Source of the DNA: Bacteroidota bacterium
Lineage (GTDB): Bacteria > Bacteroidota > Ignavibacteria > Ignavibacteriales > Melioribacteraceae
Assembly: GCA_018829545.1 (NCBI GenBank)
Contig: JAHJTX010000096.1
Coordinates: 1-44,826, forward strand
Direction: 5' to 3'
Length of the DNA: 44,826 nt
Shown piece by piece: positions 8,390 to 39,484 of the stretch (position 1 is the first letter of the stretch; each line of letters opens with the position of its first letter). Made by a program: the position numbers and the translations under genes. Under the pieces are notes generated by a model. That model did no database searches. It had not been told where the DNA came from and worked only from the letters and a program-made list of their open reading frames with translations.

Positions 8390-10513
8390 GTGTTAGAATC
8401 GGTTAAAATATTTTTCTCCGAAAACGTTTTATTCCTATCAGCGGGAGCAATTGCTCTTGTACTGTTCACGTGGTTCGTTTACAAAACAACCGAAACTTTT
8501 ATTTCGAACAGATTAAAACTGATATTAATTGTTCTTCGTAGCGCTGCAATTATTCTTATATTTTTACTGATATTTGAACCGCTTCTGAATTTGATTTACA
8601 AAAATGAAGTCATTCCGCAGAACCTTGTTTTTATTGATAATTCCAGATCAATCACTCTAAAAGACAGCGCCGGTAATTTCAATTCAATTAGTCGGTTCAT
8701 GGAATCATTCGATGATATTGATAAAGATAAATTTGCTTTCTATTCTTTTGGGGAGGAGGTTCAGAAGATTGATATTGAAAACTTGGAAGCGCCAAAAATC
8801 GTCGGAGATATAACAAATTATCAGATGATTCTTGATACGCTAGAAAAAGCGCAGAATCTGCAGAGCGTTTCAATTTTGAGCGATGGAATTATTAACGATG
8901 GCAGCAATTCCGTTTTTTCATCGGAGAGATTTGGGATTCCATTTTATACTATCGGTTTTGGAGACAGCTCCATTTCAAAGGATATTTCGGTTACTAAAAT
9001 CACTTACAATAAATTTGTTTATGCAGGCAAATCTACTCAGATAAACGCCTTAGTTAAAGCTGAAGAAATAACCGGCGGAACTGTTTCCGTTAAACTAGTT
9101 GAAGACGGTAAAATTGTTGAGTCCAAAATTGTTGCACTCGTAGACGGAAACTTAAAAAACGTTCTTTTTGATTATACACCAACAACTGCGGGCATTAAAA
9201 AATTATCGGTCGTTGTTGATTACGTTGAAGGCGAGGAAAACATAGCAAATAATTCAAAATATTTTACATTGAATGTACTCGAGAGCAAGGTGAAAATTAT
9301 CTTAATCGGCGGCGCGCCTTCAAGTGATTTTGCTTTTACATACCGCGCGTTAAAGTCTAACAAAGAATTTGACGTTAATAGAATAATTCAAATATCCGCT
9401 AATAGTTATACGAATAATTCTGCTTCAATCAGCGCACTTGATAGCGCTGATGTTTTGATATTAATTGGATTCCCCAAATACCCCAATGCCGCAATCAATA
9501 AAAAAGTTTTAAACCAAATTAATAATAGAAACAAACCGTTTTTTATTTTAAGTGATGGTTCCGATCGAAGTGAATTAAAAAGATACGAGCCGTATCTTCC
9601 TTTTCAACTGAATAATAACCGACTAACAAATATGCAAGCGCAATTGAATGTTGTTGATAAATATAATCCACTATTCAAATCCGGCGGCGCCGATGCGCAA
9701 ACTTGGGAGACTCTTCCTCCAATTAGCGTGGAAGGAAACGGAATAAATGTAAAACCAGGAAGTTCATTACTCGCTTCCGCAAGTGTGAGAGGCGTTGATT
9801 TAGAAATCCCGCTAATTATTAGCCGGGTTCAAGGTTTAAGAAAATCAATTTCAATTTCGGCTGCAGATATCTGGAAGTGGAAAATGAGACCGTCTTCTTC
9901 TTCAACAATGCTCTTCGATAACTTTATGTTAAACTCTGTTAAATGGCTAATGTCCGATACAAATAACGAATTTTTTTCTATCGAATTTAATAACAGCATA
10001 TTTTATTCCGGACAGACGATAGAGTTAATTGCTCAATTGTATGACGATAGTTTTAATCCTGTTTCAAACGCAGATGTTAAGTGCATTATCACGGGTAATG
10101 ATTTTAATGTTGAAACCCGCTTGATTTCAAAGAGTAGCGGAATCTATGAAGGAGAAGTAAAAATAAGTTCTCCCGGCGATTATTTTGTTAAAGGCATCGC
10201 AATTGAAAACGGCAGCGAAAAAATATCGAAAACAAAATCATTTAAAATTCTGCCGCAGGATTTAGAAAGTTTGGACACAAGAATGAATTCCGCTTTTCTT
10301 AAACATCTTGCAGAAGTAACCGGCGGTAAGTATTTCGGGAAAGACGAATTGAACGATTATTTCGAAGAATTGGAAAAGTTAAATTCGGTTCCTCCAAAAT
10401 TTGAATCTGAAGCAAATGATTTTCAAGTTTGGAATGAAGAAATGATTTTAATCCTAATTGTCTTGATGTTTTCTCTTGAGTGGTTCATCAGAAAAAGAGT
10501 TGGTCTGTTATAA
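8390..10513 (+). CDS. VWA-like membrane protein
   Basis: The 707-residue protein begins at a GTG. It has two N-terminal membrane segments (about 14-31 and 43-62), an extracytoplasmic von Willebrand A-like region opening with a MIDAS-type DNSRS (D83) and continuing with VSILSDGIINDGSNS, beta-rich domains, and a C-terminal membrane segment (about 683-699) followed by RKR. The layout is similar to Bat-type and DUF4159-neighbour VWA proteins of Bacteroidota, which usually sit with MoxR ATPases; no MoxR gene is nearby. The role is probably in the envelope, but the partner is unknown. Confidence 0.75.
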   Translation: MLESVKIFFSENVLFLSAGAIALVLFTWFVYKTTETFISNRLKLILIVLRSAAIILIFLLIFEPLLNLIYKNEVIPQNLVFIDNSRSITLKDSAGNFNSISRFMESFDDIDKDKFAFYSFGEEVQKIDIENLEAPKIVGDITNYQMILDTLEKAQNLQSVSILSDGIINDGSNSVFSSERFGIPFYTIGFGDSSISKDISVTKITYNKFVYAGKSTQINALVKAEEITGGTVSVKLVEDGKIVESKIVALVDGNLKNVLFDYTPTTAGIKKLSVVVDYVEGEENIANNSKYFTLNVLESKVKIILIGGAPSSDFAFTYRALKSNKEFDVNRIIQISANSYTNNSASISALDSADVLILIGFPKYPNAAINKKVLNQINNRNKPFFILSDGSDRSELKRYEPYLPFQLNNNRLTNMQAQLNVVDKYNPLFKSGGADAQTWETLPPISVEGNGINVKPGSSLLASASVRGVDLEIPLIISRVQGLRKSISISAADIWKWKMRPSSSSTMLFDNFMLNSVKWLMSDTNNEFFSIEFNNSIFYSGQTIELIAQLYDDSFNPVSNADVKCIITGNDFNVETRLISKSSGIYEGEVKISSPGDYFVKGIAIENGSEKISKTKSFKILPQDLESLDTRMNSAFLKHLAEVTGGKYFGKDELNDYFEELEKLNSVPPKFESEANDFQVWNEEMILILIVLMFSLEWFIRKRVGLL

Positions 10514-15670: not shown

Positions 15671-16432
15671 ATGACCGGGAAAAAATTTAACGACCTTGTT
15701 GAAATAATGAGAAAACTACGCAGGGAATGTCCATGGGATGCAGAACAGACGCACGAATCTATAAAATCCGCTACTTTGGAAGAAGCATACGAAGTAGTTG
15801 AGTCGATTGACGATAAAAATTTAGAAGAGCTAAAATCGGAGTTGGGTGATTTGCTTCTTCACATAGTTTTTCACTCTGTAATTGCGGAACAGGATAATAA
15901 TTTTACAATTGATGAAGTTATTGATTCCATTAAAGATAAATTAATAAGAAGGCATCCGCACGTATTTGGAAACGTGGAAATAAACAGCAATAAAGATATT
16001 ACAAGAAATTGGGAAGCTATTAAACTTTCCGAAGGTAGGAACTCGGTTGTTGAGGGAATTCCAAAAAATCTTCCTGAACTTCATAAAGCATTCCGAATTC
16101 AGGAAAAGGTTTCTAAAGTGGGTTTTGATTGGGAAGATAAAAAGGATGTTTGGAAGAAAGTTGAGGAAGAGATTCAAGAATTTAAAAATGCAGAGAATTC
16201 CGGTAATCTTTCTGAAATGGAAAAAGAAGCCGGAGATATTTTATTTGCCTTCGTTAATTATTACCGTTTCCTTGGAATCAACGCAGAAAATGCGCTGCGT
16301 AAAACAAATGAAAAGTTCACGAAAAGATTTGGTTATATTGAAGAAAAATTAAAACTCGAGAATATATCGATCATAGACGCTTCATTAACAGAGATGGACA
16401 AATACTGGGAAGAGAGTAAAAAAATATTTTAG
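15671..16432 (+). CDS. mazG: Nucleoside triphosphate pyrophosphohydrolase
   Basis: MazG hydrolyses NTPs and dNTPs to monophosphates and pyrophosphate, cleaning damaged nucleotides. The 253-residue protein has the two tandem MazG domains, the first with the metal motif LEEAYEVVE (E37, E38, E41) and ELGDLLLHIVFH (E57, D60), the second with EIQEF and KEAGDILFAFVNYYRF. The CPWDAEQTHES and RRHPHVFG segments are characteristic. Its 3' end overlaps the convergent phoH gene by 4 bp. Confidence 0.95.
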   Translation: MTGKKFNDLVEIMRKLRRECPWDAEQTHESIKSATLEEAYEVVESIDDKNLEELKSELGDLLLHIVFHSVIAEQDNNFTIDEVIDSIKDKLIRRHPHVFGNVEINSNKDITRNWEAIKLSEGRNSVVEGIPKNLPELHKAFRIQEKVSKVGFDWEDKKDVWKKVEEEIQEFKNAENSGNLSEMEKEAGDILFAFVNYYRFLGINAENALRKTNEKFTKRFGYIEEKLKLENISIIDASLTEMDKYWEESKKIF

Positions 16433-17415
16433 TCTCCGTTATTATATTTTTCATACGCATCAATGATATCTTTAACTAATTTATGACGAACAACATCGCC
16501 TTTGTTGAAATAGATAAAATCTACGCCGTCAACATTTTTCAGAATAGATTGAATTTCTACTAACCCGCTGGTGGCTCTTGAAGGCAAATCAATTTGGGTA
16601 ACGTCTCCGGTGATTATGGATTTTGAGTTGGGGCCAAGTCTTGTTAAAAACATTTTCATTTGCATCGAAGTTGCGTTCTGAGCTTCGTCAAGTATAACGT
16701 ATGCGTTATTTAATGTTCTGCCGCGCATGAAGGCAAGAGGAACAATTTCTATCACATCTTTTTCGATGTAATTTTTCAGTTGATCCGATGGCAGCATGTC
16801 TTGAAGAGCATCATAAAGCGGTCTAAGATAAGGGTCAATTTTATCTCTAAAATCACCGGGTAAAAATCCCAAACTTTCTCCAGCTTCAACTGCAGGTCTT
16901 GCTAAAATTATTTTTTGAACTATTCCCTTTTTTAACGCCGCAATTGCAAATGCCACGGCAAGGTAGGTTTTCCCAGTTCCAGCCGGACCAATCGCAAAAC
17001 AAATATCATTTTTCCAAACACTTTCCGTATACTTATGCTGTGTGGGAGTTTTGGCTTTTATTACGTCTCTTTTGGAGTAGAGAATAATATTATTAAAATC
17101 TTTGTCCGTAATTATTTCCTCACCTTGCTTGGTGAGTTCGATAATTGTGTTTACATCGTTTACGCCTAGTTTACCGGAAGTGTTCAAAACGTAAATCATT
17201 TCTTTAATTATTTTTTCTACAGCTTTTACTTCTTCAGAATTGCCTTTAATGTAAGCGCTCTCTCCACGGAATGTAACTGCAACACTAAATCTTTCTTCGA
17301 TCGGTTTAATATTTTGGTCTTTAAGACCGAGCAGCGAAAGCATATCCACATTTTCGATTTTCAGAACTTTTTCTATTTCCGTATTTCCTCCATAAATAAT
17401 AAAGCCCCTTTTCAC
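16429..17415 (-). CDS. phoH: PhoH-family ATPase
   Basis: The protein has a Walker A motif GPAGTGKT (about 143-150), a Walker B region VILDEAQN and the family segment ATSMQMKMFLTRLG, preceded by a KH-like N-terminal region. At 328 residues from this GTG it has family length. PhoH ATPases are linked to RNA metabolism. The start is uncertain: the only open upstream start is a GTG inside the arm of the terminator hairpin at 17401-17435, and a good GGAGG nearby (about 17391) has no in-frame ATG at normal distance. Internal starts near codons 23-25 (GTG, ATG) are alternatives. Confidence 0.93.
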   Translation of the reverse strand: MKRGFIIYGGNTEIEKVLKIENVDMLSLLGLKDQNIKPIEERFSVAVTFRGESAYIKGNSEEVKAVEKIIKEMIYVLNTSGKLGVNDVNTIIELTKQGEEIITDKDFNNIILYSKRDVIKAKTPTQHKYTESVWKNDICFAIGPAGTGKTYLAVAFAIAALKKGIVQKIILARPAVEAGESLGFLPGDFRDKIDPYLRPLYDALQDMLPSDQLKNYIEKDVIEIVPLAFMRGRTLNNAYVILDEAQNATSMQMKMFLTRLGPNSKSIITGDVTQIDLPSRATSGLVEIQSILKNVDGVDFIYFNKGDVVRHKLVKDIIDAYEKYNNGD

Positions 17416-27677: not shown

Positions 27678-28520
27678 ATGAAGAGTATAATTATTACATT
27701 CCTTTTATCTTCAGCAAGCTTGATTGCACAGAATTTTATTTTCGTGAATGAGATCGGTGACTTTGAAGAAGCATCCTCGTTTTCAATTAATCCATCCGGT
27801 TTCATTTATGTTGCGGATGTGGAATCGAATGAAGTTGCTAAACTTGATACGTTAGGTAATGTTAATAAATTCGTTGGAGGATACGGATGGAGTATAAGTT
27901 CCTTCGATGAACCGGTTGATGTGTTTGCAAATACTCTGCATGTTTATATTGCCGATAAAAACAACCATCGTATTCAAATTTTTGATAAGGACTTGAATTT
28001 TCTATCCGAATTTGCTTCTTCAAATGTGGATCGCGAAGAGAATAAGTTTGCATATCCCACAAGCTGCGGAGTCTCTAAACAAGGCGATTTTTTTATCCTC
28101 GATTCAGATAACTCCCGCATAATCAAGTACAATTTGAACGGCAACTACATTCTCCAGATTGGAAGCTTTGATGCGGGGCAATATGCCTTGAACGATCCTA
28201 AAAAATTTGCTGTCTCAAATTCAGAAAAAATATTTGTCGCTGAAAAAGAAAAAATAATTGTGTTCGATGTTTATGCAAATGCGCTCAATAATTTCCTAAC
28301 CGGAATAGAAAACAAAAATATTAATATCACCGCCGAGCATCTCTGCATTAATAGTAATAATGAAATAAAGATTTTGACACTCACATCAAATTCACAAAGT
28401 TTAATTTCTTTTATTCCGGAAAATCTTATGAAAAACGAAAACATCGTCGAAGTTTCACTTTTTAGAAAAAAACTATACGTGCTAACAGAGAAGAGAATTC
28501 TAATCTATACGAGATTGTAA
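27678..28520 (+). CDS. Secreted NHL-repeat beta-propeller protein
   Basis: The 280-residue protein has a short signal peptide ending near SLIAQ and repeated NHL-like blades such as VYIADKNNHRIQIFDKDLNF and FFILDSDNSRIIKYNLNGNY. These form a propeller used for binding, and no enzyme motif is visible. It starts a plus-strand unit with three membrane proteins and is 3 bp before the next gene. Confidence 0.85.
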   Translation: MKSIIITFLLSSASLIAQNFIFVNEIGDFEEASSFSINPSGFIYVADVESNEVAKLDTLGNVNKFVGGYGWSISSFDEPVDVFANTLHVYIADKNNHRIQIFDKDLNFLSEFASSNVDREENKFAYPTSCGVSKQGDFFILDSDNSRIIKYNLNGNYILQIGSFDAGQYALNDPKKFAVSNSEKIFVAEKEKIIVFDVYANALNNFLTGIENKNINITAEHLCINSNNEIKILTLTSNSQSLISFIPENLMKNENIVEVSLFRKKLYVLTEKRILIYTRL

Positions 28521-28523
28521 TTA

Positions 28524-28985
28524 GTGCAATACTATCGAGCAATCCACAGCGCCCTATTTTTTTTAGTCCTTTTACTTTTATTTGTAATATCAATTGAATT
28601 TGTTTCTTCACTTTTCCCGGAATTAATTTTTCTTCACCCTCTGTTTAATAAGATGTGCTCGTTAATTTGTCATCAAGAGCGTTCTAAACTTATTGTGATT
28701 GATCCTTATTCAAGCTTAGTTTGCTCCCGTTGTTTTGGAATATATGCCGGAGCGCTGCTAACAGCATTTGCCGGAATTTTTTTGCCGACAAAATTAAAAC
28801 CGAGTTTTAAATTTCTTTTAATAGTTTTTGGATTTATGTTGTTGGATGTTCTTTCCTATAATATGGGTATCAGAAATTACTCAAAACTTTTTGCGCTGTT
28901 ATCAGGTTTGTTTTTCGGATGCGCAGCTTTTTTATATATTTCAAAAGGTGTTGTCGATTTTTATTCAGAAATAAAGCGAAGCTAA
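28524..28985 (+). CDS. DUF2085 membrane protein
   Basis: The 153-residue protein starts at GTG and has about four membrane segments. Between the first two lies MCSLICHQERS followed by SLVCSRCFGIYAGALL, the cysteine/histidine signature of DUF2085, suggesting metal binding near the membrane face. The function of the family is not known. It is placed between the NHL protein and an unknown membrane protein. Confidence 0.85.
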   Translation: MQYYRAIHSALFFLVLLLLFVISIEFVSSLFPELIFLHPLFNKMCSLICHQERSKLIVIDPYSSLVCSRCFGIYAGALLTAFAGIFLPTKLKPSFKFLLIVFGFMLLDVLSYNMGIRNYSKLFALLSGLFFGCAAFLYISKGVVDFYSEIKRS

Positions 28986-28986
28986 T

Positions 28987-29499
28987 TTGAAAAAGTATAT
29001 TTCATCGTTTGTATGTGGATTCGGGGCAGGAGTTTTGCAAGTTGTTCCGATTGCAAAAAGTTTATCATGTTGTTTGATTATGCCTGCGGCAGTATTCCTC
29101 GCCTTAATCCTGGATAGAAAATCAAAAAAGATGACCTGTATTCTCGAAACAAAAACTGCGGTTATGATTGGTTTGTTCACCGGATTGTATGCCGCATTGT
29201 TTGGTACTTTTTTCGATTTATTCATCACGTTCATCACAAAGAATAACGATCTAATAGTTCTTTTCCCGCAGCTTCAAGAAATGATTTCAGAAATAGTTTC
29301 CGACACAGAGTTAGCAGATCAAGTGATAGCCATTTATGCAAAAGTAATTGAGGACATTCAGCTTTATGGATTTTCTGACATGTACGCTCTATCGGTATTT
29401 TTGAGCAATTTTATCATAAATTTAATTTTCAGTCTGATCGGCGCCTTAATTGGAGTGCAGATTATCAATTCAAAAATGGGCGGTAAAATAAGTGGGTAA
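28987..29499 (+). CDS. Multi-pass membrane protein of unknown function
   Basis: The 170-residue protein begins at a TTG directly after the DUF2085 stop. It has about four hydrophobic segments, with a polar stretch (about 85-125) between the second pair. I recognise no family with confidence; a superficial likeness to DUF4199 proteins is too weak to name. Its end overlaps the next gene by 8 bp. Confidence 0.6.
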   Translation: MKKYISSFVCGFGAGVLQVVPIAKSLSCCLIMPAAVFLALILDRKSKKMTCILETKTAVMIGLFTGLYAALFGTFFDLFITFITKNNDLIVLFPQLQEMISEIVSDTELADQVIAIYAKVIEDIQLYGFSDMYALSVFLSNFIINLIFSLIGALIGVQIINSKMGGKISG

Positions 29500-29911
29500 C
29501 ATTTTAATTTTTCTTTTGCACATAATTTTCGCGATTGTTCTCTTTTGGAAATTCTATAAATACGAAGGTAAATCGGCGGCTTTTCAAAATTTGCTTTTTA
29601 TTGTTCTCATCTTTGCAATAGGCTGGCCCATTGCAACTATGATTGCCAAATTACTTTTTACTTCCGATGGATTGGGAATTCCCCTCGATGTTGATAAAAT
29701 ATCGATCACCATTCAAAGCACAATTGAATCGTGGACCGGAATTTCTTTAACAAAAAGCGCCTCAGATCTTTTTGATGATTCAGAAAATTTAAACAGACTA
29801 ATAGACTTCGATACAATTCCATTGCTGATATTAACAATCGGAGAGTTTTTGTTATACAGGGTCTATTACAGAAAAGAGTTTTCTATTGCAGGCGGAAAGG
29901 AAAAACAATAA
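29492..29911 (+). CDS. Small membrane protein of unknown function
   Basis: The 139-residue protein starts at a GTG overlapping the previous stop by 8 bp. It has two N-terminal membrane helices (about 4-20 and 30-52), a soluble middle and a C-terminal hydrophobic segment (IPLLILTIGEFLLYRVYY). No family is recognised. Its 3' end overlaps the tonB-like gene on the opposite strand by 29 bp. Confidence 0.55.
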   Translation: MGNILIFLLHIIFAIVLFWKFYKYEGKSAAFQNLLFIVLIFAIGWPIATMIAKLLFTSDGLGIPLDVDKISITIQSTIESWTGISLTKSASDLFDDSENLNRLIDFDTIPLLILTIGEFLLYRVYYRKEFSIAGGKEKQ

Positions 29912-30542
29912 CTGCAGATTGAACTTTCTGTTCATTCTTTTGAGGTAGTGGTTCAAATCTCCATTGACGAAGAGAATTAATTGCCGCCGACTCTAGTTTG
30001 GAATCGGCTTTCAATAATGGAATTATCCTTCCAACTGTGCCGTCCGGGAGAATTGTAAATCGAAGTTTTACATCTATCTCCTTTGATACGCCTTCTGGAT
30101 AAGAAGGTAAAAAATAACTGTAAATTTTTCTGATTCCCTTCCCGCCGAAATCAATATCGAAACCAAATTTTCCTTTTGATACTCCGTCGTTTTCGCTGCC
30201 GCTTTTACTCTTTAATCTAGCGCTTTCGAGATCAGCCTTTAAACTGCCGGATTGAGAAACTTCATTAGTTTCGTCAGCGTTTTTTACCTTTGGAACAGCA
30301 ACATCGGATTTACTATCCTTCATCAATTCAGCATTTTTATCGGATTCAGATAAATCCTTCTCAATTTCATTTTTCAATAAACTTGAGGCGCTCGATTTTC
30401 CTAATGAACCGAATCCGATTGTAACAAAATCGTCGGTTCCAAATTCCGGTGTAAAAGTGAATGCCATAAAAATTAGAGCGATTGCTGAATGGATAGCAAC
30501 TGAAATTGTAAGAGATAGTTTACGCGAGTTTCTGTAAATCAT
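29883..30542 (-). CDS. TonB-family energy transducer
   Basis: The 219-residue protein has an N-terminal membrane helix with an S-x3-H motif (S14, H18) like the one that couples TonB to ExbBD, a charged periplasmic linker (about 60-120), and a C-terminal TonB domain with LPSYPEGVSKEIDVKLRFTI and AAINSLRQWRFEPLP. The start overlaps the exbD stop by 1 bp (TAATG). It is the last gene of a seven-gene unit, and its 3' end overlaps the convergent gene by 29 bp. Confidence 0.92.
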   Translation of the reverse strand: MIYRNSRKLSLTISVAIHSAIALIFMAFTFTPEFGTDDFVTIGFGSLGKSSASSLLKNEIEKDLSESDKNAELMKDSKSDVAVPKVKNADETNEVSQSGSLKADLESARLKSKSGSENDGVSKGKFGFDIDFGGKGIRKIYSYFLPSYPEGVSKEIDVKLRFTILPDGTVGRIIPLLKADSKLESAAINSLRQWRFEPLPQKNEQKVQSAVIVFPFRLQ

Positions 30543-30946
30543 TAATGTAACTCTTTTTCTGTTTCAATTGTGAATTTGCTTATCCCCGCTCCTTTGGCAG
30601 CATCAATAACTTGAATTACAGAATTGATGTCCGTGTTTTTGTCCGCTCTAATAATCAGGTTTTCATCGCCATTCTTTTTAAAAAGCCCGCCAAACTTAGA
30701 GCCAAGAGCCGCTAGCGGAACTTCATCCTTACCGATATATATTTTTTTGTTTTCAGTAATTGTTACTACAACCCTAGATGTAGTAACCTGCTCGTTATTT
30801 TTTGCGCCCGGCAGTTTTACTTTTACACCGGATTGAATTACAAATTGTGAAGTAAGCAAAAAGAAGACAAGCAGCAGCATCACAATATCTGTAAGTGATG
30901 CAAGGCTAAAAGTGCTTAAAGGCTTGTTTGACATTTCAAATTTCAT
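30542..30946 (-). CDS. ExbD/TolR-family transporter subunit
   Basis: The 134-residue protein has one membrane helix with the essential aspartate in SLTDIVMLLLVFFLL and a periplasmic domain ending in an alpha/beta region. With ExbB it forms a proton-driven motor that energises TonB. It lies 7 bp after the exbB-like gene and is translationally coupled to tonB. Confidence 0.93.
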   Translation of the reverse strand: MKFEMSNKPLSTFSLASLTDIVMLLLVFFLLTSQFVIQSGVKVKLPGAKNNEQVTTSRVVVTITENKKIYIGKDEVPLAALGSKFGGLFKKNGDENLIIRADKNTDINSVIQVIDAAKGAGISKFTIETEKELH

Positions 30947-30953
30947 TACGAAC

Positions 30954-31583
30954 CTACAACTTATTTTCTATTGACTGCTCTTCGATGATGTCTACAACAT
31001 CATTTGAAATAACTTCCATATCGAGAACTAGTTTATTTATAGAATTGACCAGGTAATTGTAAAACGTAAACGTAATAATTCCAACGGCTAATCCGAAAGC
31101 TGTGGTAAGAAGCGCTTCCCAAATTCCTCCAGCCAAATCACTTGGATTTGCCGATCCCTGCAAATCTTCAATTTTCATGAATGCAGTTATCATTCCGGTT
31201 ACTGTTCCCAAAAATCCAAGAAGAGGCGCAACTCCGGAAATGGTTGCGAGAACAGATAAGCCTCGTTCAAGTTTTCCTATTTCTTGTTTACCAGCAGATT
31301 CGATTGCTTCTTTTACGCGTTCATGACCAAGCTTATATTTCTTCAAACCCTTTCTGATGATATTTGCAGCCGGGGATTTTTCTTCCATGCAATAATCTAT
31401 TGCGCCGTTGATATCGCTCTTTTTTAATAACCCGCGTATTTTAACTAAAAATGCGGGAACGTTTAATTTTGATCTTCTGATTACAATGTAGCGCTCGATA
31501 ATAATTGCCAACCCTATAACCGACGATAATAAAATCGGTATAAGCAGCCAGCCGCCTTTAATTACAATTGAAAGAATGTTCAT
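30954..31583 (-). CDS. ExbB/TolQ/MotA-family proton channel
   Basis: The 209-residue protein has three membrane segments (about 7-26, 112-133 and 154-175), with the conserved SGVAPLLGFLGTVTGMITAF region between. It is the stator partner of the ExbD-like protein. Its position behind an SPOR protein and an outer-membrane barrel ties this motor to that envelope assembly. Confidence 0.93.
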   Translation of the reverse strand: MNILSIVIKGGWLLIPILLSSVIGLAIIIERYIVIRRSKLNVPAFLVKIRGLLKKSDINGAIDYCMEEKSPAANIIRKGLKKYKLGHERVKEAIESAGKQEIGKLERGLSVLATISGVAPLLGFLGTVTGMITAFMKIEDLQGSANPSDLAGGIWEALLTTAFGLAVGIITFTFYNYLVNSINKLVLDMEVISNDVVDIIEEQSIENKL

Positions 31584-31603
31584 ACTAGTCCTATGTTTAC
31601 GGA

Positions 31604-33316
31604 TTAAAATTTATTTGTCAATAAAAAATCTTCCGCTTCAGCAATCGATTTAAAATACCCGATTCGCACGCGGTTCCAAATTCCCTTTTTCTCTAAAGAT
31701 ATTTGGAATATAAACGCATCATAACGTTTTTGCTTCAATCTATTTACTTCTCTTTCAGCTATTTTCTCATTCTGCCAGGAAGATAATTGTATAGTGTACT
31801 GTTTCCCATCAAAATAGATTTGATTTGCAACCCGCCTATCGTTCTCAATTACTCTATAAATTCCACTCTTCTTAGTTTCTGCAGCCTTGGGTTTTTCAGA
31901 TTGAGTAGAAGATATAATCTGCTGCTTTGCCTGCTCAATCTTTTCGCTTTCTTCGGGAGTTAATTTTGAATCTGCAGTTTTTGTGGTTTCAGTCTGCTCG
32001 CCATCATCCCTTGACACGGTAATATTGTTTGGCGAAAAAATAAAATACGCGCCAATAATCGAAGCCGCAATAAATCCAATTAGAATTGGTTTTTTATACC
32101 AGGGTTTCTTTTCAATGATAATTTTTTCTTCATCTTCTTTCTCGAATTCCGGCGTATCCTTAAAATCCTCCATAGTCATGAATGAACTGCCCAAGACGTG
32201 ATTCTCTTTTGGTGACTGATATGATTTTGAGGATTTCTCCGGAACGAAGTCAGTTTGAGCGCTTCCATCAAGGACTAGATGTTCAACCTGCTCTGCCGGA
32301 TCATCCTCACGAAGGTAATCGTCAAGCTGGTCGAACAAGCTTTTCTTTTTATCGTCACTTTTGGTAGTATCGAATTTCCTTGTAACCTCAGGCTGCGGGC
32401 TCATTTCAGAAATTAAATCCTCACTGAATCCCCAATCCATTTTCTTTTCAGTTGCATCTTCAGTCTTAACTTTTTTGTCTTTATCTAAAACTTTTTCTTC
32501 AATGATTTTTTCTTCTTTAATTTCCGGGCGTTTTTCAATTACAGGTATTATTTCTTCCATCTCGTCTGACTTAACCTGCTGATCTTCAAACAGGGCGTCA
32601 AGGTCCAAATCCTTTTCTAGATCGTCAAGATCATTAGATGCATCAATCGGATCAAGCATATCTTCTGTTTGAATCTCTAGCAGTTTGGATTTGCTTGGCG
32701 CAGCTTCTTCAGAAGATTGCTCAACTTTCAAAGATTCTTGAACTCCAATTTGATCAACAATATTCTCCAAGGGCTCTTTTACTGTCTCAGATGAACGAGA
32801 GCTGAAATCGGCTTCTAAAAATTCATCCCAAATGTTATAATTTTTTAAAATTGTTCCGCTTGAAATTAGTCCATCAAGTTTTCGGTCTAATTCCGCGTAA
32901 ATGTTCTCAACCGGATTGGCGGATTTAACAATATCTGCCGAAGGAGAAAAATTAATTAGAGGTTGATTAAATCCAAGACTGAATACTTTTTCGTTAAATG
33001 TACTTGAATCTGTAGAATGATCATCCAATTCAATTGTTAAAAATAAGTTACGAGTGTCGCTATCAATTTTATCTTTTTGCGGAGTGAAAACTAGGTTAAT
33101 TCTTTCGGTTTCTTTTGTCAGTAATGATTTTCTTTCTTCTCGAGTAAGAGGTTCTCGTTTTTTTTGAAAGACTCCAATTCCGTTTAGTTTTATTGCTTCA
33201 TCAACTTCTAATTTGGCTGAAATATTTTTAATCAATGACGAATAAGCATATTCTCCATATGAGCCTGAATAGTTTAGCGATTTTTCAATTATATTAATTA
33301 AAGAAGTTCGAGTCAT
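31604..33316 (-). CDS. HU-like (CCDC81-type) N-terminal domain, membrane helix, SPOR domain protein
   Basis: Residues 1-82 follow the HU/IHF pattern: an N-terminal helix pair, then the AIKLNGIGVFQKKRE hairpin and the RINLVFTPQKDKI end. A long acidic low-complexity stretch (about 150-400) leads to one membrane helix (about 418-436) and a C-terminal SPOR domain (about 490-570) with QYTIQLSSWQNEK and WNRVRIGYFKSIAEAEDF. SPOR binds denuded peptidoglycan at division sites. HU-CCDC81 plus SPOR is a known Bacteroidota combination thought to link DNA or a cytoplasmic partner to the cell wall. The spacing to exbB is 20 bp. Confidence 0.85.
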   Translation of the reverse strand: MTRTSLINIIEKSLNYSGSYGEYAYSSLIKNISAKLEVDEAIKLNGIGVFQKKREPLTREERKSLLTKETERINLVFTPQKDKIDSDTRNLFLTIELDDHSTDSSTFNEKVFSLGFNQPLINFSPSADIVKSANPVENIYAELDRKLDGLISSGTILKNYNIWDEFLEADFSSRSSETVKEPLENIVDQIGVQESLKVEQSSEEAAPSKSKLLEIQTEDMLDPIDASNDLDDLEKDLDLDALFEDQQVKSDEMEEIIPVIEKRPEIKEEKIIEEKVLDKDKKVKTEDATEKKMDWGFSEDLISEMSPQPEVTRKFDTTKSDDKKKSLFDQLDDYLREDDPAEQVEHLVLDGSAQTDFVPEKSSKSYQSPKENHVLGSSFMTMEDFKDTPEFEKEDEEKIIIEKKPWYKKPILIGFIAASIIGAYFIFSPNNITVSRDDGEQTETTKTADSKLTPEESEKIEQAKQQIISSTQSEKPKAAETKKSGIYRVIENDRRVANQIYFDGKQYTIQLSSWQNEKIAEREVNRLKQKRYDAFIFQISLEKKGIWNRVRIGYFKSIAEAEDFLLTNKF

Positions 33317-33351
33317 GTTTTTGCTCTTTTACTTTTAGTGCAATAATTTAA

Positions 33352-34971
33352 TTACCAACGGTAATCAATTCCAAATATTATATCAAATGGTTTTTCTTGA
33401 TATCCTTTCAGAATATAATTATCTCTATTCAACAGATTTTCAAATCCAAAAGTAATATCGAAATTTTTTACGAGACTATAATTTAAATAACACGCCAAAT
33501 TATAATAATTCGGCAGCTTTTCTGAATTTGTTAAATCCGTATAAGGACTAAACGCAGCATTCACCTTTGTTTTTATAGTGAATCCAAAATCATAATTATA
33601 ACCATATTCCAAAGCTGATTTGGCAATCGGTATATAAGGAATGCGCTTACTACTCTCTTCAGTCGCATACCGGAAAATCAAATCACCATAGAAATATCCA
33701 TAAGGTCCCTGGTGAAACATAAATTTCAAAAATGCGCTAATATCGTTTACATTATTCGATGTGTACAATTCAAATCTGCCATCGTTATTCAAATCCTGCA
33801 TGAAATATAACCCGTCTATTTCAGCAATCGTCATACCTCCGTCAATCTCAAAATATTTTAAGTACTCAAACTTAAGAGCGACTTTGGCGAATTTTTTGTA
33901 CTTGGTGAAAATTGTTTTGAAATAATCTCCAGCAAAATAAGGGTTAGAATCAATAAAATCTCTCATGGTATTAAATTGAGTGTGAGGCGAATACTCGGCA
34001 ATCAAGTGAATGCTTTTATCGAAGCTGTACACAAAATTTATTTTAGGAGCCAGCAAATTATTTGTATCCTGCTTTGAGTAATTTACGCCCAAATTTAGTT
34101 TAAGATTTTTAATTGCTGTGAATCCCAAATTGAATTCAGTATCGTAATAATTTTGCGTATCGTTAATCAGAAATTTGCTGTCAAAACTTTGTGAAGTAAT
34201 TCCACCGCTTCCACCGAGACTTAAACCCCAAAAATTAAACTCAATCGAAGCGCTGCCTTTGTAAACGCTCTCTTCAATATTTTGAGGTTTTAAATCGATG
34301 AAAGTACCGTATAGGTTAAGTGAGTATTTAAAAGATTTATTCAGAAAATTGGAAAGCAGAACGTTTCCAAAAATATTATCCGTCTCGCGAAGCCAATAAT
34401 TCCCAAGTGAGTTATAAAGATTATACTTATCACGATAAAGTTTCCCCTTCACAGAAATATTTAGTCCGGGGAGAAAATCACTTTTATTGCTGACAAATAT
34501 ATTGGCAATTGCTGAGGCGCCGGAAACATTATACCCGGCATAATCGACATATTCCTTAACGTCGGAGCCCCAGACGTGCGTATTCAGCATAAAATTTTCC
34601 CAGCCGGTTGAATAAATGAATTCACCCAAGGGCAAGGTGCGGATTCCGGCGCCTAGCTTTAATATTCCGTTATTCACTTCAAAATTTTCAAGAAGTTCTT
34701 TTTCTTTTTGAATTGGCTCGGTTCTATCAAGATCGGAAAATTCTTCGTTAATTAATTTTGGTCTGAAAAATTCATCCGATATTGTTGAAATAAAAGACGG
34801 CTTGTTTTTTTCCATTTTGGGGATTGTAACACTCTGCACGCCGGTAATTACAAAATCCGGAAGTTCGATACTTTGACCTTGATTATCCTGCTGCGAATAA
34901 ATCCCAGCAGGCAGCGTAGCCATAAATACAGCTATAAAAATAAGTGAGCGGGTTAAATAGTTTTTCATCAA
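33352..34971 (-). CDS. Outer-membrane beta-barrel with a TonB-box-like N-terminus
   Basis: The 539-residue protein has a signal peptide (about 1-26) and then IELPDFVITGVQS (about 35-47), like a TonB box of a TonB-dependent receptor. The residues up to about 110 are too short for a full plug domain, and the rest is a run of aromatic-flanked strands ending in FGIDYRW, a terminal tryptophan as in the barrel signal. It is likely an outer-membrane partner of the downstream TonB. Whether a plug exists elsewhere is unknown. It lies 17 bp after the TPR gene. Confidence 0.7.
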   Translation of the reverse strand: MMKNYLTRSLIFIAVFMATLPAGIYSQQDNQGQSIELPDFVITGVQSVTIPKMEKNKPSFISTISDEFFRPKLINEEFSDLDRTEPIQKEKELLENFEVNNGILKLGAGIRTLPLGEFIYSTGWENFMLNTHVWGSDVKEYVDYAGYNVSGASAIANIFVSNKSDFLPGLNISVKGKLYRDKYNLYNSLGNYWLRETDNIFGNVLLSNFLNKSFKYSLNLYGTFIDLKPQNIEESVYKGSASIEFNFWGLSLGGSGGITSQSFDSKFLINDTQNYYDTEFNLGFTAIKNLKLNLGVNYSKQDTNNLLAPKINFVYSFDKSIHLIAEYSPHTQFNTMRDFIDSNPYFAGDYFKTIFTKYKKFAKVALKFEYLKYFEIDGGMTIAEIDGLYFMQDLNNDGRFELYTSNNVNDISAFLKFMFHQGPYGYFYGDLIFRYATEESSKRIPYIPIAKSALEYGYNYDFGFTIKTKVNAAFSPYTDLTNSEKLPNYYNLACYLNYSLVKNFDITFGFENLLNRDNYILKGYQEKPFDIIFGIDYRW

Positions 34972-34988
34972 CTTTTTACTTTTGCCAA

Positions 34989-37961
34989 TTATAAGTTTCT
35001 AAGTTTCTTTTTTGCTTCTGCGCCGAGTTCATCCCCGGAATGACGATTGATAACCACTTGATACATTTCTCTGGCCTGTTTTTTATCTTTAAGTTCCTTA
35101 TAGCAATCGCCAAGAAGAATTAAAGATTTTGAATACCAATATTCGTAATTAGAAAAAACCGAACGAACACGGACTAAAGCAGAAATTGCATCATTATATT
35201 TTTTCTGTTCAAATAGAGTTTCACCGAATAAACATTGTGCTCTCGCTCCGATGTCATCGGTTCTATTCTCGCCCAATTCGCGGAAATACTTTTCAGCTTC
35301 CAAATAATTTTTAGCCAGAAGTTCAAGCAGTCCCAATTCTATTTTCGCTTGAGCAGAAAACACGGATTTCTCGTAATAAACAATTATATAGTTAAATGTC
35401 TGATGCGCACCGGAGTAGTCCTCAAGTTCAATTTGAACCATCCCCTTTAAAAATTCAACTTCCGCAGCTCTGTTTGAAAATGAAATTGCTTTCAGAGTTT
35501 TATCATACAGATTAAACGCAGAGATAAAATCTTTTTGCCCGGAATATATTTTCCCTAATTCGATGACTGCGTCTATTCCATAATCAGAATTCAAGTACTT
35601 TTCAATTACGGTCAAGAAATTTTGCTCTGCGTTTTTAGGCTGCTTCATATTTAAAAAACTTTTACCAATCCAATAATAAGCCTCACTTAAATGCTTCCCT
35701 CTCGAATACGCCGCCAGATAATTTTTATAACCTTCTACTGCATTTTTATAATCCGCAAGGCTGTAGAATATTTCGCCCTTCATTAGCAATAATTTTTCGG
35801 AATATTCGGATTTCGGGTTATTCTTCAGAAACAAATCAACTTCATCAATCGCTTTTTCCGGATTATCAATTGCGATGTAACAATATTGAATTCCGTTGAG
35901 CGCATCAAATACAAATTGAGTTTTTGGATAAGACGAAATTAAATGCTTGTAAACTGAAATTGCCTTATCGTATTCGCCAAGATTATAGTATGCATCTCCA
36001 ATAGAGTACAATGCAATTGGTTTTATAGAAGAAGTGGGATATTTCTTTTCCACTAATTCATAATTTGTGATGGCAGATTCAAAATCGTTCTTTTTAAAAT
36101 GAATCCACCCTATCATATATTGGGAATCATCCGCATATTTTGATTTTGTGAATCTGCTTTGAAGCAGCTCAAACTGTTTTATAGCTTCGTTGGATTTACC
36201 GGTTTGGAATAACGACTGCCCGTACTGATAATACGTAAAATCGTCTCGAATCTTATTTCTGTTCTCAGCAAATAATTCACCGTAAATTTGTGTTGATTTT
36301 GCAAAATCCTTAAACCCAAAGTAGCTGTCGGCTAATCTTTGTTTTGCGTCCAAATAGTTTTTGTCTCTCTTAAAATCCGAAACAAACTCAGAAAAATAGA
36401 ATGATGCATTCACAAAATCCTTTTGATTAAAAAAGCTGTACGCCTTTCCGTATAATGCTTGTGAATAAATCTCGTTATTGACCTTATCTACCCTGTGAAA
36501 TCTATTTGAAGCTTCTGAATATTTTTCTTGCGCAAATAGTGATTCACCCAAATAGTAATTTACTCTATCTTTTTCAAATCTCGGATCATCCGATGATAAT
36601 TGCTTCAAGCCACTTTCGGCTTTTTTATAATTGCCAAGAAAATAATTTGACGCCGATATACCGAGCGCAGCTCGGTTCTTTATTTCCTTTTGAACTTCCG
36701 TAACTTCCAACACCTTGCTGAATAATTCGCCTGCTTTTCGAAATTCATTTTTATTAAGATATAACTCGCCAAGCAGTACGTAAGCATTCCCGCGTGTATT
36801 ATTGTCGTAAGACCTTACCGCCAGATTGAAATATTCCTCTGCTTTGCTAAAATCTTTTAAGTCATACTCAATTAGCCCGAGACTGTAGTGCACGGTATGC
36901 ACGAGGGAATGACCAGGATACTTTCCTAAAAACAACTGATATAACTGCGAAGCAATCTTTCGGTTCCCTATATTCCTTTGCGATTCCGCAGCCCAATAAA
37001 GAGAATTAATGGCTAATGTATCGCTTCCGGAATTCGCCAATTTTTCAAATTCTATAAATGATTTCCCAAAATCGCCCAATTGAAAATTGATCCACGCCAA
37101 ACCGTACTTAATTCTTCTAACGTCTTTTTCACCGGTAAATTTTCCGAGCAGAGAATTATAAATTATCTCAGCATCTTTTAGTTGATTCAATTGAAAATAC
37201 GAATTGGCAAGCATATAGAGCGCTTGACTGTATTGTTCTTCTGCAAGTTCTTCAATTAGCGGACTAGATAATTCTAAAATGGCGTTGTCGTATTCACGCA
37301 GTTGAAAATAGCATATTGCAATCCTTAGCTGCGCGAGCGGCGCTAATTCACTTGCTTTATGGTAGGCAAGCAATTCATCGTAATAAGAAATTGCTTCCGA
37401 AAAATTTTCCGTTTTCTCGTAGACTCCCGCAAGACTGTATAACGAATAAACAAGATATTCATTAGGTGCCGCTTCACCGATTGCGCTAAGGAAATACTCC
37501 TCTGCTTCAAGAAATTTATTTTCGGATTGAAACGATTTTGCAATCCAATATTGAGACTCTTCACGGAATTCACTTTTAGGATACTCGGTCAATAAAATTA
37601 AAAATTTCTCTCTGCTCTTTCTAAGCAAGTTCTGCTTATAATAAATTGTTCCTAATCTATAGAACGCAATGTGTCTAAAATTAGAGTTTTTATAATTATC
37701 CGAAAAATTCTCATACTCTGTAACTGACGCTGAAAATTTTGAAAGATTAAATAGGCACTCGGCTGAATAAAACTTTGCGGATGAATATATTTCTTCATCA
37801 ACAAAATTTTCTGAGGAAACGCTATTGAATAAAAGCCATGCCTGAGAATATTCCTTTTGTGAATAATACTCCATTGCGAGATTGTAATTGTCGCTAACTT
37901 GAGCAGGAAGGGTGCCGAACATCAAAAGCAAAACAAGTATGATTAACTTTTTCATAGTCAT
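34989..37961 (-). CDS. Large periplasmic TPR-repeat protein
   Basis: The 990-residue protein has a signal peptide (MKKLIILVLLLMFGTLPAQ) and then TPR units to the end, with the repeated shape A..F..V...YP.S....A.Y.IG..Y. The design is like a long chain of BamD/CpoB-type repeats. Such proteins act as scaffolds for outer-membrane or periplasmic complexes. The ATG overlaps the preceding stop by 4 bp (ATGA), and the beta-barrel gene follows by 17 bp. It may be a lipid-free periplasmic adaptor. Confidence 0.85.
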   Translation of the reverse strand: MTMKKLIILVLLLMFGTLPAQVSDNYNLAMEYYSQKEYSQAWLLFNSVSSENFVDEEIYSSAKFYSAECLFNLSKFSASVTEYENFSDNYKNSNFRHIAFYRLGTIYYKQNLLRKSREKFLILLTEYPKSEFREESQYWIAKSFQSENKFLEAEEYFLSAIGEAAPNEYLVYSLYSLAGVYEKTENFSEAISYYDELLAYHKASELAPLAQLRIAICYFQLREYDNAILELSSPLIEELAEEQYSQALYMLANSYFQLNQLKDAEIIYNSLLGKFTGEKDVRRIKYGLAWINFQLGDFGKSFIEFEKLANSGSDTLAINSLYWAAESQRNIGNRKIASQLYQLFLGKYPGHSLVHTVHYSLGLIEYDLKDFSKAEEYFNLAVRSYDNNTRGNAYVLLGELYLNKNEFRKAGELFSKVLEVTEVQKEIKNRAALGISASNYFLGNYKKAESGLKQLSSDDPRFEKDRVNYYLGESLFAQEKYSEASNRFHRVDKVNNEIYSQALYGKAYSFFNQKDFVNASFYFSEFVSDFKRDKNYLDAKQRLADSYFGFKDFAKSTQIYGELFAENRNKIRDDFTYYQYGQSLFQTGKSNEAIKQFELLQSRFTKSKYADDSQYMIGWIHFKKNDFESAITNYELVEKKYPTSSIKPIALYSIGDAYYNLGEYDKAISVYKHLISSYPKTQFVFDALNGIQYCYIAIDNPEKAIDEVDLFLKNNPKSEYSEKLLLMKGEIFYSLADYKNAVEGYKNYLAAYSRGKHLSEAYYWIGKSFLNMKQPKNAEQNFLTVIEKYLNSDYGIDAVIELGKIYSGQKDFISAFNLYDKTLKAISFSNRAAEVEFLKGMVQIELEDYSGAHQTFNYIIVYYEKSVFSAQAKIELGLLELLAKNYLEAEKYFRELGENRTDDIGARAQCLFGETLFEQKKYNDAISALVRVRSVFSNYEYWYSKSLILLGDCYKELKDKKQAREMYQVVINRHSGDELGAEAKKKLRNL

Positions 37962-39484
37962 AATATAATTCCAGAAACAACAATTGCAAAAATGCCTCCG
38001 AATATTCCCGCAAATAAATTTACCATATCGTTATCTAGCCACCCTAACCCTCTGAACCGAAGTGATTCCTTATTGCAATGATTTTTCTTTTCAGTAATTC
38101 TGTCGCATTCACCGCATTTATATTGAATTTGAAATTTAGCGCCTAAAAAACTATCGAACAGACTTCCAGCAATTCCCGCTGATGTTATTAAGATTAGCGA
38201 AATAAGTAAATTGTTATCGAACCAAAAATAACCAGAGAGCGCAATAATTGAGCCTCCAACCATCCCGCCCAAAGTTCCGATAAGTGAAATTCCTCCTGAC
38301 ATTCCTTGTTCTATCTTTTTGAAATTCAAGATATTATACGTATCCGTTTCCTTCAATGTTCCAATCTCAGTAGCCCAAGTATCTGAGCACACTGCAGCTA
38401 ACGATGCCAAATAAATTATATAATAAATTGGATTATCATCAAATACATTTAGAATAACCAGCAAACCACCAAGACCGCCATTTGCTGCGACTTGTAAATA
38501 ATCTCTTACACCTGATTTGTTAAAATAACTTTCTACTTTAAGATTTACTTTCAACCTTAGTTTTGAGAGCAGACTCGATAAAATAAAAAACAAAAGTATC
38601 GGTACGCTCCACTTCCACCCGCCGAGTCCGAAAATAAATCCAGCTAATAGAAACGTAGCCGCCGCACCACTTGCAGTTAAAAATTTTACTCTATACGAAA
38701 CAACAGCCACAAAGGCAGCAAGCAGCATACCCTGAATGAAATTAATGAGTAATTCTTTGTTCGGATTTTCAAACAGTATACTCAACAATACTGCGCTGAA
38801 CAATGGAATAAGTAAATTATCAAGACCGGAGGAAGAAAGAGCTTCGATTACAGTTAGTATTGCTGCAATTAATATTGAAGCCGCAAAAAGATAATACACA
38901 TCAGCATTAATCGTTACATTAGATTTAATTCCAAATAATGATTCAAGTCCAACTCCCCAGAAAAATAGCACAAGGAATGTTACAATGAAAAATATGAGCG
39001 ATCCTATAAATGATTTTTTATCTCTTGAAAGAATAAAATAGTTTTTTGAGAATCTTGACCCGAAGAACGCAGCGAGCGAATCGCCGAATGATAATATCAA
39101 TATACTGAATGAAATAATCCATGCACTATTCCCCCAGACAAGAAGTAAAACCAAATATGATAAAGGAAAATAAAAAATGCCCCAGCTTTTTAGATGCCGC
39201 GGATCGATAGATTTAAGAATTGAATTCTTGACTAGAAAAAATGTAAGTATGGCGAGTAAAAAAGAAATCACAGTAAGTGTAATAATATCATCATAAATCA
39301 AAGGCGCAATTGAAGCGGCGCTGCCCGCAATAATATGTAGTGCATTTCTCGCGGTACCGTGTTGAATAATATTTTTGCGCCCCAACATTTCTAGAGATAT
39401 TAGAGAAACAACAATGAGTAATAATAGGATTACAATTGATTCCAAGTTTAAATTCTTAATTATGAGTCCACTCTGAAAAGTCAT
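37958..39484 (-). CDS. Two-domain polytopic membrane protein: VTE5/dolichol-kinase-like plus DUF92 (VTE6-like)
   Basis: Residues about 15-235 carry the CTP-dependent lipid-alcohol kinase pattern, with FGDSLAAFFGSRF (about 133-145) and KKSFIGS (156-162), as in dolichol kinase and phytol kinase VTE5. Residues about 245-508 match DUF92/TMEM19, the VTE6 phytyl-phosphate kinase family, with CSDTWATEIGTL and GSLFDSFLGAKFQ. The fused protein could make an isoprenoid diphosphate from an alcohol in two steps. The first start codon (39484) is inside the MITE at 39464-39582 and encodes MTFQSGL. A TTG after the element is an alternative start. It opens the envelope operon. Confidence 0.8.
   Translation of the reverse strand: MTFQSGLIIKNLNLESIVILLLLIVVSLISLEMLGRKNIIQHGTARNALHIIAGSAASIAPLIYDDIITLTVISFLLAILTFFLVKNSILKSIDPRHLKSWGIFYFPLSYLVLLLVWGNSAWIISFSILILSFGDSLAAFFGSRFSKNYFILSRDKKSFIGSLIFFIVTFLVLFFWGVGLESLFGIKSNVTINADVYYLFAASILIAAILTVIEALSSSGLDNLLIPLFSAVLLSILFENPNKELLINFIQGMLLAAFVAVVSYRVKFLTASGAAATFLLAGFIFGLGGWKWSVPILLFFILSSLLSKLRLKVNLKVESYFNKSGVRDYLQVAANGGLGGLLVILNVFDDNPIYYIIYLASLAAVCSDTWATEIGTLKETDTYNILNFKKIEQGMSGGISLIGTLGGMVGGSIIALSGYFWFDNNLLISLILITSAGIAGSLFDSFLGAKFQIQYKCGECDRITEKKNHCNKESLRFRGLGWLDNDMVNLFAGIFGGIFAIVVSGIIL

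Follow-up and report, generated by a model that had tools for sequence, protein, structure and literature searches.

SPOR domains bind septal glycan in the proteins in which they have been characterized, and several exporters, namely PgaA, BcsC, AlgK-AlgE and Slam, combine TPR with a β-barrel, in their case of 14-16 strands and, to our knowledge, devoid of a TonB box. As far as we know, the mechanism of surface lipoprotein export in Bacteroidetes is open. The same holds for outer-membrane invagination at division in this group, since it is reported to lack identifiable tol-pal loci, other systems being expected to be found (2025 study, PMC12204202).

Here, we analyzed a stretch of DNA of 44,826 nt (the window) from contig JAHJTX010000096.1 of assembly GCA_018829545.1, which originates from a Bacteroidota bacterium (Melioribacteraceae). 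It harbors an operon that likely encodes a proton-driven, envelope-spanning machine acting on a plugless outer-membrane barrel. Every component can be assigned to a known family or fold; what appears to be new is their assembly and the combination of TonB addressing with a barrel lacking a plug, neither of which was found described in the searchable literature, which left out preprints and most subscription papers. The cluster provides a conserved and testable candidate for division-time outer-membrane constriction or for surface lipoprotein export, and poses a physical puzzle, namely a barrel addressed by TonB yet deprived of a plug.

Operon organization

The ORF listing contains seven open reading frames, all on the minus strand, spanning 39484 to 29883 and separated by overlaps or by gaps of at most 35 nt, in agreement with the genes, order, overlaps and spacing given in the original prediction. 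In transcribed order they encode the DUF92, TPR, barrel, HU/SPOR, ExbB, ExbD and TonB proteins; the first and last pairs overlap by 4 and 1 nt, respectively, and the intervening gaps measure 17, 35, 20 and 7 nt. The features are the following:

37958..39484, minus strand: DUF92 membrane protein, 508 aa (DUF92, 3e-61); overlaps the TPR start; membership of the machine unlikely
34989..37961, minus strand: giant TPR protein, 990 aa (TPR_6, 2e-53); signal-peptide-like N-terminus; presumably periplasmic
33352..34971, minus strand: plugless barrel, kin of TonB-dependent transporters, 539 aa; signal-peptide-like N-terminus; about 22 strands (AF2)
34840..34866, minus strand: TonB-box-like motif ELPDFVITG, barrel residues 36-44, in a region with pLDDT < 50
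31604..33316, minus strand: HU-like/one-TM/SPOR protein, 570 aa; HU 1-63, TM 409-430, SPOR 504-565
30954..31583, minus strand: ExbB/TolQ-like motor subunit, 209 aa (MotA_ExbB, 1e-34); three TM
30542..30946, minus strand: ExbD/TolR-like motor subunit, 134 aa (ExbD, 1e-27); one TM
29883..30542, minus strand: TonB-like force transducer, 219 aa; one N-terminal TM; C-terminal TonB_C (5.8e-8)

Hydropathy agrees with the expected topologies. Four plus-strand genes at 27678-29911 converge on the operon, encoding an NHL-repeat protein, a DUF2085 protein, a DUF4199-like protein and one protein without assignment; neighbors of similar size recur in relatives, e.g. at locus L033. Elsewhere in the window, 8390-10510 corresponds to an ORF of 707 aa without Pfam match.

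A plugless barrel with a TonB-box-like tail

A Pfam scan of the barrel returned no family match. The AlphaFold model, built on a 74-sequence alignment, reached a pLDDT of 83 and a pTM of 0.75; about 22 strands were counted from its strand list, preceded by a disordered tail of about 70 residues (residues 26-97 mostly below a pLDDT of 50). The 50 best fold matches in the PDB were all TonB-dependent transporters (BtuB, E 2.6e-16, TM 0.63), and the sequence profile of the barrel matched the C-terminal barrel of these transporters with an E-value of 2e-7. Of 35 phylum-wide members, 5 matched the barrel model of TonB-dependent transporters. The original prediction had described a near-plugless barrel, and this description stands: the AF2 model contains no standard plug, and the Plug domain (PF07715) was detected neither in the window protein nor in any of the 35 relatives.

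The tail carries ELPDFVITG. No other 9-mer of the protein is as conserved (relative entropy 3.99, versus a mean of 1.68), and 5 of the 14 invariant columns fall within it. Distant members display other but similar β-like motifs at the same place. The same genome encodes 27 plug-bearing transporters, whose boxes, such as LDEVIVTAN, resemble ELPDFVITG, which we infer to be a TonB-binding box. Because a plugless barrel of the TonB-dependent transporter type bears this putative box, the barrel is likely a client of TonB, as previously proposed.

The giant TPR and HU/SPOR proteins

The NCBIfam model tol_pal_ybgF matched the TPR protein with 280 bits in eight stretches, the PorW/SprE model NF052312 gave 135 bits for a cut-off of 250, and the TPR_Slam model remained below its cut-off. 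In the HU/SPOR protein, SPOR was recognized at 1.1e-11 and Bac_DNA_binding (PF00216) weakly, at 6e-5. PF18174 had no match in the source genome, Bacteroides ihuae serving as the named positive control. In distant families, the gene at the SPOR position encodes HU-CCDC81 (PF18174/PF18175) and/or SPOR domains, so the predicted one-TM protein with an N-terminal HU-like domain would occupy the same position there. In family f24, the HU gene instead lies beside genes read as dprA and a hotdog thioesterase; at L222, L223, L227 and L230, the HU-CCDC81 gene adjoins an apparently divergent dprA and a hotdog acyl-CoA thioesterase. The tol-pal operon of Escherichia coli likewise starts with a hotdog thioesterase gene, ybgC.

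An ancient motor, largely dedicated

The tolQ and tolR models outscored exbB and exbD on the motor genes while staying below their cut-offs; for the operon ExbB, the TolQ model gave 101 bits and the ExbB model 74 bits, both sub-threshold. The TonB family profile matched the C-terminal domain of E. coli TonB (3e-9). The source genome encodes two ExbBs and contains three TonB loci above cut-off. In an ExbB tree of 73 rows, the 36 operon ExbBs all fell into one clade of 38 rows (support 97/95), to the exclusion of the further ExbBs that these genomes encode; the remaining two rows came from families where the TPR-barrel pair stands alone. Since all operon ExbBs form a single clade, the motor is ancient and largely dedicated. 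The original prediction of an operon with its own motor thus holds for this clade but not everywhere: ExbBD is missing from the operon in several families of the same class, and the tested genomes of f6 and f8 encode a single ExbB, located outside the operon, so the motor can be shared.

Conservation of gene order

The sample comprised 198 genomes of the phylum (f, L and G denote family labels, loci and genomes, respectively). The barrel protein search gave matches in 39 of these genomes, and the loci around them revealed that the TPR-barrel-SPOR-ExbB-ExbD-TonB order is largely kept within the same family and taxonomic order. Scanning named genomes yielded 79 loci, labeled mostly Melioribacteraceae, Ignavibacteriaceae and Ignavibacteriales. 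Counting only loci with enough flank, TPR immediately precedes the barrel in 64/65 testable cases (median overlap 4 nt), and downstream of the barrel are found SPOR (62/71), TonB (53/54) and ExbB (48/54).

Full-length TPR homologs of about 1000 aa were retrieved by profile search in most families of the phylum. The barrel adjoins or lies near TPR in 31 of 40 distant loci, directly downstream in 27, beyond a stretch of 444 or 1074 nt in two, the last two being L173 and L174; many also contain SPOR-ExbB-ExbD-TonB. In eight further loci, all from f25/f26 (L154, L157, L159-L163 and L166), the barrel is away from TPR, and L158 was assigned to neither group. L070 is the barrel-SPOR-ExbB-ExbD-TonB cluster of one of the f25/f26 genomes in which TPR is located elsewhere. 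The SPOR and TonB genes are sometimes away from the TPR-barrel pair (f24, f25, f26 and several f28). The gene-neighborhood comparison across Ignavibacteria and Bacteroidota hence places the order far beyond the source genome, and the core cluster is, as judged from sequence, ancient and conserved over nearly the whole phylum. The genes are packed as an operon and, with the exception of DUF92, would constitute the single unit originally proposed.

Among individual loci, the gene following TPR reads as EPSP synthase (aroA) in L154 and L159, L173 (family f31) encodes a Mur-ligase-family protein after TonB (15968-17257), and the TPR ORF of L054 (10727-15850) reaches 1708 aa, about 660 residues more than its relatives.

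The first gene of the operon behaves differently. DUF92 is found upstream of TPR in 33 named-scan loci, i.e. about half, and is rarely seen outside this taxonomic order; we therefore regard it as a lineage-specific neighbor. The proposal that this 'lipid-kinase-like' gene is part of the machine is not borne out, DUF92 being absent upstream of TPR in most lineages of the phylum. The DUF92 proteins occur in two forms, one of about 265 aa and one of about 500 aa with an extra N-terminal membrane half, in the latter of which two polyprenol or phytol kinase activities may have been fused.

Distribution relative to Tol-Pal

Pal exceeded its cut-off in 43 of the 198 genomes and TolB in 41, all from f20, presumably Chlorobiaceae; in the other two f20 genomes, TolB fell just below its cut-off. 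In the source genome, the best TolB propeller match (3e-22) and the Pal lipoprotein match (7.9e-22) were both under cut-off. A strong giant-TPR match was obtained in 141 of the 198 genomes, none of which has curated-level TolB or Pal. Conversely, the class to which f20 belongs, sampled with 61 genomes (f18, f20 and f33), lacked the giant TPR, and none of eleven tested genomes of this class contained a full-length barrel. Several f20 genomes have as their best TPR match a gene of about 250-300 aa beside pal, at the position expected for cpoB; the f20 loci L240, L241 and L279 are of the Tol-Pal type, with tandem Pal matches and an adjoining TPR gene of about 270-280 aa. As f20 is one clade, this complementarity amounts to one event and not to a statistical proof. 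Moreover, 14 genomes have neither system at the cut-offs used (f14, f15, f18, f33, f37, and one each of f4 and f28), so that replacement need not be obligatory; one of them, G162, has a barrel.

In the ExbB tree, the TolQ of f20 lies outside the operon ExbB clade, on a long branch. Its candidacy as an ortholog of the operon ExbB is unsupported by the tree, bearing in mind the length of this branch; since the two are not sisters, the two systems would not be simple orthologs.

Discussion

The dedicated energized envelope complex put forward in the original prediction is retained for the conserved unit, the motor clade and the plugless barrel, but loses DUF92 and a motor of its own in every lineage. 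As for function, the likeliest candidate, at a little under an even chance, is a Tol-Pal-like job in which the machine would tie the outer membrane to both the inner membrane and the septal wall during constriction. Proton flow through ExbBD would cause TonB to pull the tail of the barrel; the TPR protein would dock on the barrel from the periplasm and may cap it; and the SPOR domain would retain the assembly on denuded septal peptidoglycan. The TPR protein would correspond to CpoB, and the barrel and SPOR protein together to TolB-Pal. The TPR protein may act as a scaffold, as originally proposed, and the HU domain may contact DNA. The distribution of the giant TPR relative to TolB and Pal fits such a division-site role without proving it. 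Several points weigh against it: a pure tether needs no pore-sized barrel, the complementarity with Tol-Pal is, from the genomes searched, in effect that of one clade, 14 genomes have neither system, the f20 TolQ is not sister to the operon ExbB, and in some families the SPOR and TonB genes lie apart from the TPR-barrel pair.

As the main rival reading, the barrel could be a TonB-energized export channel passing surface lipoproteins, polysaccharide or protein outward, with TPR as gate and TonB as drive. A barrel of about 22 strands without plug would, according to the model, form a large pore, the phylum distribution would also suit surface lipoprotein export, and the layout recalls that of the TPR-barrel exporters mentioned above, although these differ by their smaller barrels and the missing TonB box. 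In Myxococcus, protein secretion reportedly requires Oar, a TonB-dependent transporter (PMC6434023). However, the locus has no linked substrate gene, and the adjoining HU/SPOR protein points to peptidoglycan and division; we consider export on the whole unlikely and favor the Tol-Pal-like role over it. An odd nutrient importer, with the plug function supplied by another protein, would account for the importer-type fold and TonB-box-like tail, but it is quite improbable: the barrel keeps the same partners over the whole phylum, unlike typical importers, none of the 35 members has a plug, the same genome encodes 27 plug-bearing transporters, and the operon lacks a gene for a lid, a binding protein or an ABC transporter. 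Equally hard to credit is a system of outer-membrane lipid or polyprenol homeostasis tied to DUF92, which overlaps the TPR start here and adjoins TPR at roughly half of the loci but, over most of the phylum, does not accompany the cluster.

Returning to the Tol-Pal-like role, a bolder and more doubtful proposal is that Ton and Tol are joined by a third class of proton-driven trans-envelope machines, represented by this cluster: TonB would pull a plugless transporter-type barrel, the giant TPR would bridge to septal peptidoglycan, and outer-membrane constriction would be achieved in place of Tol-Pal in Bacteroidota.

Comparison with known systems

The cluster borrows features from several described systems. 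Like type IX secretion, which includes periplasmic proteins with large TPR (PorW/SprE) or with a TPR-propeller-OmpA arrangement (PorE), it involves a large TPR protein, but the PorW/SprE model stays under its cut-off and no core gene of that system was recognized in the operon. It differs from the Slam and exopolysaccharide TPR-barrel exporters by its barrel of about 22 strands, versus 14-16, and by a TPR protein that stays under the cut-off of TPR_Slam. With the HU-CCDC81/SPOR proteins of Bacteroidetes, it has in common HU-like domains and a C-terminal SPOR, and their Pfam families match distant cluster members; the window protein, however, matches only Bac_DNA_binding, weakly, and the TPR-barrel-TonB operon setting is absent from the literature searched. 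TonB-dependent transporters share the fold of about 22 strands, the C-terminus, the TonB-box-like tail and the C-terminal domain of TonB, whereas the operon barrel has no plug, is partnered with TPR and HU/SPOR genes, and has its own motor clade. Tol-Pal also features a PMF motor of the TolQ-TolR family, a single-TM transducer, a TPR protein with YbgF/CpoB-type repeats and, as is probable here, a link to septal peptidoglycan. In contrast, the operon system lacks curated-level TolB or Pal, its TPR protein spans about 1000 aa versus about 260, a SPOR protein lies within the cluster, and its outer-membrane client would be a barrel with a TonB-box-like tail.
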